DNA from: an uncultured Lachnospiraceae bacterium
Lineage (GTDB): Bacteria; Bacillota; Clostridia; Lachnospirales; Lachnospiraceae
Assembly (NCBI GenBank): GCA_945913255.1
Contig: CAMEDC010000008.1
Location: forward strand, 1 to 64,000
Direction: 5' to 3'
DNA length: 64,000 bases
How positions within the stretch are numbered: the first letter of the stretch is position 1; each line of letters starts with the position of its first letter. Both the position numbers and the translations under genes were made by a program. The notes under the pieces were generated by a model, which saw nothing but the letters and a program-made list of their open reading frames with translations, ran no database searches and was not told where the DNA came from. Below are positions 31,825 through 35,193 of the stretch, in pieces.

Positions 31825-33828
31825 ATGATGAAAAGCACAGTAATCAAGGAAAAATACGGAAAGACATATCATATGCCACCTGAAGTGACCTATGACTGGG
31901 TGAAAAAGGATTGTATTGAGAAAGCACCCATCTGGTGCAGTGTTGATTTGCGGGATGGCAACCAGGCACTGATTGATCCCATGAGCCTGGAGGATAAACT
32001 GGAGTTTTTCAAACTGCTTGTGGATATCGGCTTCAAGGAGATTGAGGTGGGATTCCCGGCCTCCTCGGATACGGAATATAATTTTATCAGAGCCTTGATT
32101 GAAAGAAATATGATTCCGAAGGATGTGACCATTCAGGTACTGACACAGGCAAGAGAACATATTATCCGAAAGACCTTTGATGCAGTGAAGGGCGCACCTC
32201 ATGCGGTGGTGCATCTCTATAACTCTACATCGGTAGAGCAGAGGGAGCAGGTATTTAAAAAAGATAAGGAAGCAATCAAAAAGCTGGCGGTAGATGGCGC
32301 AGAACTTTTGAAGAAAATGGCAGATGAAACAGAAGGAAACTTTACCTTCGAGTACAGTCCGGAAAGCTTTTCCCAGACAGAAGTAGATTATGCCTTGGAA
32401 GTCTGTAATGCGGTGCTGGATGTATGGCAGCCGACGAAAGATAATAAGGCAATTATCAATTTGCCTACTACGGTACAGGTGGCAATGCCCCATGTATTTG
32501 CCGGACAGGTAGAATATATGCATAAGCATCTGAAATACCGGGAAAATGTTGTATTGAGCGTGCATCCCCACAACGACAGAGGCTGCGGTGTCAGTGATGC
32601 GGAGTTTGGTATTCTGGCGGGTGCGGACAGAGTGGAAGGTACTCTTTTCGGCAATGGTGAGCGTACCGGAAATGTGGATATTATCACGGTTGCATTAAAT
32701 ATGATGTGCCATGGTGTGGACAGCGGCCTGGATTTTTCCGGCATTATGAAGATAAGGGAAGCTTATGAGCGGTTTACGGGAATGAAGGTTCACGAGAGAA
32801 CACCTTATGCGGGAGACCTTGTGTTTACGGCATTTTCAGGTTCCCATCAGGATGCCATCAGCAAGGGTATGAACTGGCTGAAGGAAGGAAAGAGCGGAAA
32901 GCGTTGGGATGTGCCTTATCTGCCCATTGACCCGGCAGATGTGGGAAGAGAGTATGAGTCGGACGTAATTCGTATCAACAGTGTGTCCGGCAAGGGCGGT
33001 GTGGCATTTGTCTTAAAGCAGAAATTCGGTTTTTCTCTGCCTGCTGCAATGAAAGAAGAAGTGGGATACTTGATAAAGGGTGTATCCGACAAACGACATC
33101 AGGAGCTGCTTCCTGCGGAAATATACGCTATTTTTGAGGAAAATTACATTAATCCCCGCAGCGTGTTCCGTATTCCGGAGTGCCATTTTAAGCAGGAACG
33201 TGGTATTCAGGCAGAAGTAACGATTGAACAGAATGGCGGGACAAGAGTCATCAGGACCTCCGGTAACGGGCGTCTTGACGCAGTGAGTAATGCGATAAAA
33301 ACATATTTTGGCATCAATTACGAATTGTCGGTATACGAGGAACATGCGATTTCCAAAGGTTCCAGCTCCAAAGCGGCAGCATATGTGGGTGTGATGCATG
33401 ATGGCAGATTTTACTGGGGAGTTGGAGTGGATGAGGATATTATTAAGGCTTCCATAGCCGCACTTACTTCCGCAGCGAACAAACTGGCGGCAGAGCAGCA
33501 CATTACGGCGGGAAGAGAAGACAGAGTTGTGGAAATCATCAACTTTATCCAGAATGATTATAAAAATGTAACTTTGGAAACACTTTCGGAAGAGTTTCAT
33601 CTGTCAAAGCCTTATCTTTCCAAATATATCAAGGAGAAAGCGGGAGCCACCTTCCAGGAGGTTGTAAAGGAAGAGCGCATGAAAAAAGCCCGTATGCTGC
33701 TCCGGGAGACAAACCAGACAGTAGAGACGGTTGCCTCTGAAGTCGGTTATGAAAATGTGGAGCATTTTAACAGGCTTTTTAAAAGGAGCTATGGGATTAC
33801 GCCGGTACAGTACAGAAAACAAGGATAA
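31825..33828 (+). CDS. leuA: 2-isopropylmalate synthase fused to a C-terminal AraC-type helix-turn-helix domain
   Basis: Single ORF of 667 aa: catalytic APIWCSVDLRDGNQALIDPM...VEVGFPASSDTEY-type region and SVHPHNDRGCGVSDAEFGILAGADRVEGTLFGNGERTGN; regulatory region GNGRLDAVSNAIKTYF; then VVEIINFIQNDYKNVTLETLSEEFHLSKPYLSKYIKEKAG...VETVASEVGYENVEHFNRLFKRSYGITPVQYRKQ. Confidence 0.95.
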   Translation: MMKSTVIKEKYGKTYHMPPEVTYDWVKKDCIEKAPIWCSVDLRDGNQALIDPMSLEDKLEFFKLLVDIGFKEIEVGFPASSDTEYNFIRALIERNMIPKDVTIQVLTQAREHIIRKTFDAVKGAPHAVVHLYNSTSVEQREQVFKKDKEAIKKLAVDGAELLKKMADETEGNFTFEYSPESFSQTEVDYALEVCNAVLDVWQPTKDNKAIINLPTTVQVAMPHVFAGQVEYMHKHLKYRENVVLSVHPHNDRGCGVSDAEFGILAGADRVEGTLFGNGERTGNVDIITVALNMMCHGVDSGLDFSGIMKIREAYERFTGMKVHERTPYAGDLVFTAFSGSHQDAISKGMNWLKEGKSGKRWDVPYLPIDPADVGREYESDVIRINSVSGKGGVAFVLKQKFGFSLPAAMKEEVGYLIKGVSDKRHQELLPAEIYAIFEENYINPRSVFRIPECHFKQERGIQAEVTIEQNGGTRVIRTSGNGRLDAVSNAIKTYFGINYELSVYEEHAISKGSSSKAAAYVGVMHDGRFYWGVGVDEDIIKASIAALTSAANKLAAEQHITAGREDRVVEIINFIQNDYKNVTLETLSEEFHLSKPYLSKYIKEKAGATFQEVVKEERMKKARMLLRETNQTVETVASEVGYENVEHFNRLFKRSYGITPVQYRKQG

Positions 33829-33830
33829 AT

Positions 33831-34817
33831 TTATTTCTCTGGATAAAGCCAGCCTGCGTATTCCATAATGGACTGGTTTTCCATTCTTTTATCGGATTTC
33901 TGCATCTGTTTCCGGTAATCGCGGGGAGACATCTGCATGATTTTGATAAAATAGCGGTTAAAGCTGGAGACGGAATGAAATCCCACGGTTTCCGAAATAT
34001 TCAGAATGGAATCCTCAGTGCTTCTCAGCAGATTGCAGGCCTTTGTAATCCGGGTATTGTTTACAAAATCCAGAGGAGAGGTGCCCATGATGTCGTGGAA
34101 TACGCGGCGAAAATGGGTCGGACTCCAATGGCATAGGTCAGCCAGATATTCTATGGAAAACTGGCTGCTGTAATTTTCTTCAATATAGTCTAAGGCAGGG
34201 GCAATGACAAGGGCGTTGTCCTTGTCTTCTTCCTGGCTCGGAGCAGCCTCGGCGGCTCCGGTATCCGAATTGCCATCCTCATTTTTCTCCAGTGTTTCAA
34301 TTCGCAAAAGTTCAATGTATAAAGACAGCAAAAGACCTTTGGCACTCAGCTGATAGCTGGGTTTCTGCTCTTCCAGTTCCCGTATGACGGACAGGACAAG
34401 CTCATAAACCTGCGGATGATCGGTTCGGTTTAAAATAGGCAGGAAACCATGGGAAGAGTAAATCGAAAAATCGAAATTTTTCCATGTGGCAGGCAGCATA
34501 TTGCGAAACAGCTCCTGCGGATCAAAATAAATATAAGACCAGTGGCTCTCCGTACCGGGTGTACTATATGTAGTGTGCGGAACGTTTTTGGGAATCACGG
34601 TGACATCCCCTGCCTTGAAGGATAGGGGTTCTCCGAAAAATTCAATGCATCCGCTGTCTGAGTGGCAGATACCGATTTCCAGACAGTTATGGAAATGCAG
34701 TCGTCCGCTGGGAACATCCGATATTTTCCAGTAATCTCCGGACAGAAGCAGCACGGGAAAATGCATGGGCAGATAGTAACTTCTGTATTCCGTGACAACA
34801 CCTTTCTGTTTTGCCAT
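33831..34817 (-). CDS. AraC-family transcriptional regulator (cupin sensor + HTH)
   Basis: LHFHNCLEIGICHSDSG...GDVTVIPKNVPHT; C-terminal FSIEYLADLCHWSPTHFRRVFHDIMG...NISETVGFHSVSSFNRYFIKIMQMSPRDYRK. Confidence 0.93.
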   Translation of the reverse strand: MAKQKGVVTEYRSYYLPMHFPVLLLSGDYWKISDVPSGRLHFHNCLEIGICHSDSGCIEFFGEPLSFKAGDVTVIPKNVPHTTYSTPGTESHWSYIYFDPQELFRNMLPATWKNFDFSIYSSHGFLPILNRTDHPQVYELVLSVIRELEEQKPSYQLSAKGLLLSLYIELLRIETLEKNEDGNSDTGAAEAAPSQEEDKDNALVIAPALDYIEENYSSQFSIEYLADLCHWSPTHFRRVFHDIMGTSPLDFVNNTRITKACNLLRSTEDSILNISETVGFHSVSSFNRYFIKIMQMSPRDYRKQMQKSDKRMENQSIMEYAGWLYPEK

Positions 34818-34848
34818 AATAATCTTCCTTTCATTATCTTTACATACT

Positions 34849-35002
34849 GTAACTATTCAGAGCCCATTCGCAAAATCGCCTCTTCGAGGCTTTCCTTTTG
34901 CTCATGTTGGGCTTCTCACCATATAAATTTTCAAAAATATGTTCATTCATGCAAGCATGATTCACATATTTATTGAAAATTTGCATGGCTCTGAATAGTT
35001 AC
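34849..35002. mobile_element. 154-bp MITE, probably IS66-type
   Basis: Perfect 16-bp terminal inverted repeats GTAACTATTCAGAGCC (34849-34864) / GGCTCTGAATAGTTAC (34987-35002), flanked by an 8-bp direct repeat TACATACT (34841-34848 and 35003-35010). No coding capacity; two internal hairpins. Confidence 0.88.
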
Positions 35003-35193
35003 TACATACTATATATAGCAATCAAATCGAATAAAATCAACCATAACTTTGTGTAACCACATCTCTTTTCGTTCATAATTCGGTTACATTTTCTTTAAAA
35101 TAAATCCACAAACAAACAAAACCCACATCAAATTGCCCACGAATATCACTTCAAAAAAGGGAAAAATAGGCAAAAACACTACCTACCGAAAAA

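Follow-up and report, generated by a model that had tools for sequence, protein, structure and literature searches.

A MITE with IS66-type ends and a conserved RNA-like fold upstream of an AraC-type regulator gene in an uncultured Lachnospiraceae bacterium

The element and its surroundings

The window, a stretch of 64,000 nucleotides from contig CAMEDC010000008.1 of an uncultured Lachnospiraceae bacterium, carries an element of 154 bp in the region between the gene of an AraC-family regulator and that of an ABC permease (Table 1). Direct reading and a repeat search show that its two arms are complementary at 16/16 positions, with 122 nt between them, and that the same octamer, TACATACT, abuts the arms directly on both sides with 8/8 positions identical. 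The 16-bp inverted repeats and the 8-bp target-site duplication are thus exactly as the earlier note had claimed, and the perfection of both agrees with its view that the insertion is recent. The element has no transposase gene and no plausible ORF; the only frame overlapping it, of 104 aa (34662-34976, plus strand), is spurious, and the earlier note was correct in substance to see no ORF in the element. With respect to the AraC-type gene, the strand matching the RNA-like fold is sense, and the element lies 31 nt upstream of the start codon. The folding z of the 154-nt unit is -9.2 for one strand and -9.8 for the other, values that are strong partly because the unit is palindromic. The 3' end of the AraC-type gene meets the 3' end of one continuous ORF of 667 aa (31825-33828, plus strand), an unusual enzyme-regulator fusion that comprises a full 2-isopropylmalate synthase (HMGL-like, IPMS_D2, LeuA_dimer) and a C-terminal AraC-type helix-turn-helix.

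Table 1. Features at and around the element (window coordinates)
Feature	Coordinates	Strand	Basis or remark
MITE, 154 bp	34849..35002	-	minus is the strand matching the RNA-like fold
Left terminal inverted repeat GTAACTATTCAGAGCC	34849..34864	+	direct reading, repeat search
Right terminal inverted repeat GTAACTATTCAGAGCC, read on minus	34987..35002	-	direct reading, repeat search
Target-site duplication TACATACT, left copy	34841..34848	.	direct reading; family statistics
Target-site duplication TACATACT, right copy	35003..35010	.	direct reading; family statistics
GCCTCTTCGAGGC hairpin then TTTCCTTTTG, terminator-like	34878..34890	+	hairpin scan, family counts
Long interior hairpin; variable sequence, many compensatory changes	34919..34988	-	repeat search, 42-copy alignment
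AraC-family regulator (AraC_binding + HTH_18)	33831..34817	-	ORF list, domain search
Block kept in relatives without the element, adjoining the insertion point	35011..35046	.	orthologous-region comparison

The intergenic region is recognisable, without the element, in at least six congeners (G016, G001, G006, G012, G019 and G026), which provides the empty site that the earlier note had proposed to look for. The conserved block starts at the duplication (ACTATATATAGCAAT...AAAATCAACCAT). Its conservation is good in G016, G001, G006 and G032, poorer in G012 and G019, and very slight in G026. The block is probably a promoter or operator; a promoter scan reported no sigma-70 promoter within it. G006 has about 20 copies of the element elsewhere and none at the orthologous AraC leader. 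Comparison with these congeners, which are 70-75% identical and not sister strains, suggests that the site in the window was empty before the insertion. The leader of the AraC-type orthologue in G032 contains a copy of the family (L054 / L314) in the same orientation, apparently an independent insertion. A single ancestral insertion for the two copies is rejected, since about 66 nt separate the G032 copy from the block, since that copy has a different interior hairpin, and since the duplication in the window is intact.

A dispersed family and its plausible IS66 partner

The window element is one member of a family. In its own genome (G000), a draft of 3.38 Mb, nine places match it, two of them at full length, and the second full-length copy (C15:31382-31535) is 95% identical to the window MITE. 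With one genome taken per species, 40 of the 101 genomes of the genus give a match in a plain DNA search. A covariance model built from 42 copies, home-made and with rough E-values, detects the element in 88 of the 138 species of the genus. In a wider sample of the order it matches 22 of 196 genomes, the matches outside the genus being weaker and rarer. A search of plasmid records gave no match, and one of phage records gave eight weak or partial ones, in unannotated faecal contigs. Together with the Rfam match described below, these faecal hits point to a gut clostridial host.

The flanks carry a clear signature of insertion. Among 122 copies from many species, counted per copy and not per event, the left and right flanks are identical at 8/8 positions in 21 and at 7/8 or more in 31, against 0.11 and 0.78 expected when the flanks are re-paired. 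The duplications differ from site to site, for example AAATAATT, CATATTTG, ATATGTTT, GCAAATAG and ACATTATT. They occur in 25 of the 42 copies with GTAAC intact at both ends and in 6 of the 80 others, as is expected if ends and duplication both decay with age. Further copies with different 8-bp duplications, sought as a check on the earlier reading of the element as a MITE, are thus present, and together with the empty orthologous sites they bear that reading out. Transposition of the family is well supported.

An autonomous partner in the same genome is usual for a MITE, not essential. The draft G000 (96.5% complete, 101 contigs) gave no PF03050 or TnpC match, and it may lack a partner that is present in the organism; PF03050 (IS66) is found in 35 of the 101 genomes of the genus sample. 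A search with a divergent TnpC located two identical IS66-family elements of 1817 bp in the complete genome of the congener G006, with ends GTAACTATTCAGCACCCC and GTAACTATTCAGAACCA and 8-bp duplications ATTTTTAT and AAAAAAAC. Their transposase of 485 aa matches PF03050 at 1.2e-42 and NF033517 with 263 bits (cut-off 180). It is the one ORF of more than 80 aa wholly inside the 1817 bp, without TnpA or TnpB. ISDge4 of the ISBst12 group likewise has one ORF and an 8-bp repeat, with TIRs GTGACTACTCAGCA/GTAACTGCTCAGCA (PMC12898284). The shared ends and 8-bp duplications place the G006 elements in this single-ORF branch of the IS66 type. The MITE resembles ISDge4 in its ends and in the length of its duplication, whereas it has no ORF where the autonomous type has a single transposase ORF, and its interior is unrelated.

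The 16-mer of the window is identical to the two ends of the G006 element at 15/16 and 14/16 positions, hence not exactly, and copies of the family share 13-18 identical terminal bases with that element at both ends. Two copies in G087 (L089 and L104) match its left end over 18 bp and its right end over 17 bp, and some copies also reproduce the asymmetry between the two. The IS66-like character proposed earlier can therefore be narrowed to the TnpC-only, ISBst12-type branch, of which the genus holds elements with matching ends and 8-bp duplications. Other IS66 elements of the genus have similar ends, GTTACWGTTCAG or GTTACTATTCAC; a second IS66 element (L133/L145) has GTTACWGTTCAG ends and the duplication CCGATTTT. 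Upstream of TnpC this element has an extra ORF of 106 aa (L133 3043-3363, minus strand), which has no Pfam match. A simple internal deletion of the G006 element as the origin of the MITE is rejected, because beyond the ends only isolated 13-mers match and the interior holds no IS66 sequence. The structure of the element and the relatedness of its copies can be read directly from the genomes, and from them we infer that an IS66 transposase performed the transposition.

The interior fold and its orientation near genes

Between its ends the MITE carries a conserved, strand-specific RNA-like fold in place of IS66 sequence. This fold, the orientation bias and the link to an Rfam family are additions to the first reading of the locus. 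In the alignment of 42 copies, double changes occur in 29 of 45 pairs; the stems change on both sides, and the letters of loops and internal loops stay. The 12-bp ends of duplication-bearing copies are nearly all consensus. In copies without a duplication the arms have mutated and are still paired: 90 such copies show 100 matched double changes, where shuffles, which ignore relatedness, give 22 on average and 34 at most. On the minus strand of old copies, G-U exceeds A-C by 40 to 11 in the arms and by 72 to 32 inside; in young copies the ratios are 5:4 and 21:11. Part of this excess is mutational, since at unpaired sites C-to-T changes (0.114) exceed G-to-A changes (0.070), which is reckoned to give a ratio of about 1.5:1. 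The alignments concerned (A2 and A3) were fitted to the model structure. A function of the fold as RNA is possible.

The copies are not placed at random with respect to strand. Where a start codon lies within 80 nt downstream, the folded strand is sense in 30 copies and reversed in 7 (60 copies from five genomes, with mechanical, ORF-based gene calls); the ratio was 20:5 in the first 40 copies and 10:2 in a replication set. The distance from the start codon is 18-52 nt for most sense copies. On the strand opposite the folded one, 97 of 122 copies have a terminator-like hairpin, most of them at a single fixed position, 34878-34890 in the window; the folded strand has one in 16 of 122, and shuffles give 2-5. 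The simplest reading of the bias is that selection would have eliminated antisense insertions in leaders. Beyond such purging, the fold may also have a positive function there. The fold and the one-directional placement upstream of genes mean that the family may be more than genomic litter.

Related repeats and competing explanations

The minus strand of the window MITE matches the Rfam family Clostridiales-1 (RF01699) over its full length, with 33.5 bits (E 6e-4), below the gathering threshold of 48 bits. In the reciprocal search the home-made MITE model matches one Clostridiales-1 copy at a rough E-value of 1e-4. The interiors are thus distantly related and both repeats are high-copy in the same genomes, whereas the ends and duplications differ, GTAAC with 8 bp in the MITE and TGATG with 5 bp in Clostridiales-1. 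Matches to RF01699 number 79 in G006, 46 in G088 and 33 in G073 (loci L168-L187 are copies from these three genomes). A perfect 5-bp duplication flanks seven of ten copies that show the extended TGATGYCRGGGTC...GACATCA form, against 0.18 expected. The high copy number and the 5-bp duplications at TGATGYCRGGGTC ends are why the Clostridiales-1 family itself appears to be mobile. In the source paper of 2010 Clostridiales-1 is listed among candidate RNAs, and the main text uses neither 'transposon' nor 'mobile' (PMC2864571).

These observations are very probably explained by a non-autonomous MITE with ends of the TnpC-only (ISBst12-type) IS66 kind, mobilised in trans and carrying a fold enriched in sense in 5' leaders. 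An IS66 transposase would recognise the GTAACTATTCAG ends in trans, and insertion of the 154 bp into TACATACT, between the conserved block and the AraC-type gene, would have produced the 8-bp duplication. The fold carried between the ends is unrelated to the IS. Among surviving copies, those in 5' leaders whose folded strand is sense are over-represented, which leaves the terminator-like hairpin opposite the gene transcript. The bias may be caused by selection against terminating insertions, possibly with the addition of a useful leader structure.

Could the element primarily be a structured RNA gene or cis-regulatory RNA related to Clostridiales-1, its end repeats being only a basal helix? 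The full-length RF01699 match, the covariation in 29/45 pairs and the sense placement in 5' leaders agree with this, yet the match falls short of the gathering score, exact 8-bp duplications that differ between sites abut the ends in many copies, and there are empty sites and ends in common with an IS66 transposon. Duplications, empty sites and IS66 ends make mobility necessary, so that a structured RNA as the sole explanation, refuted by the duplications, is very unlikely and survives as a second layer over mobility. Several other transposase families make 8-bp duplications. It is conceivable that one of them (IS1595, ISL3, IS256) moved the MITE, the resemblance to IS66 being convergence, and the own genome is without detectable IS66. 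Against this stand the 13-18 terminal bases identical at both ends to intact IS66 elements in a MITE-rich genome, the left/right asymmetry kept in some copies, and the GTTACWGTTCAG or GTTACTATTCAC ends of further IS66 elements in the genus, which together render it extremely improbable.

A further alternative concerns the fold only. Template switching at a palindrome (quasi-palindrome correction) needs no function and could produce the paired arm changes of old copies without selection on an RNA; the excess of matched double changes over shuffles (100 against 22) would suit it. However, correction at the DNA level predicts neither the G-U excess over A-C of 40:11 in old arms (5:4 in young ones), partly mutational as this excess is, nor the 30:7 sense orientation near start codons, and such an origin of the paired changes is rather unlikely.

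Beyond the trans-mobilised MITE itself, one may tentatively suppose that a single structured RNA module has been the cargo of at least two unrelated transposon types (the IS66 type with 8 bp and the Clostridiales-1 type with 5 bp), repeatedly installed in sense in 5' leaders, where selection would then keep its fold in a regulatory or insulating role. If this were so, the Clostridiales-1 'sRNA' of Rfam would be a mobile-element family. IS66-derived MITEs seem to be sparsely described in the literature, and for the present family there are many copies, with duplications, empty sites and a plausible partner. It also suggests that an RNA family already in the catalogues is mobile DNA. As copies of differing age and orientation can be compared inside one genus, the family amounts to a natural experiment on mobile palindromes becoming mRNA leaders. 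Correia, RUP, BOX and ERIC elements are likewise short, palindromic, non-autonomous intergenic repeats, some of them exapted in transcripts. They and the Coxiella MITEs share this general form with the window MITE and differ from it in transposase family, ends and hosts. Coxiella MITEs are reported to be linked to small RNAs (PMC5896051).

Four copies from four species (L244, L256, L270 and L272) follow a tRNA gene at a distance of about 51 nt, and the flank upstream of them is conserved. They have an enlarged apical hairpin and no duplication; their arms are GCAATCATTC, and in three of these copies both sides have changed.
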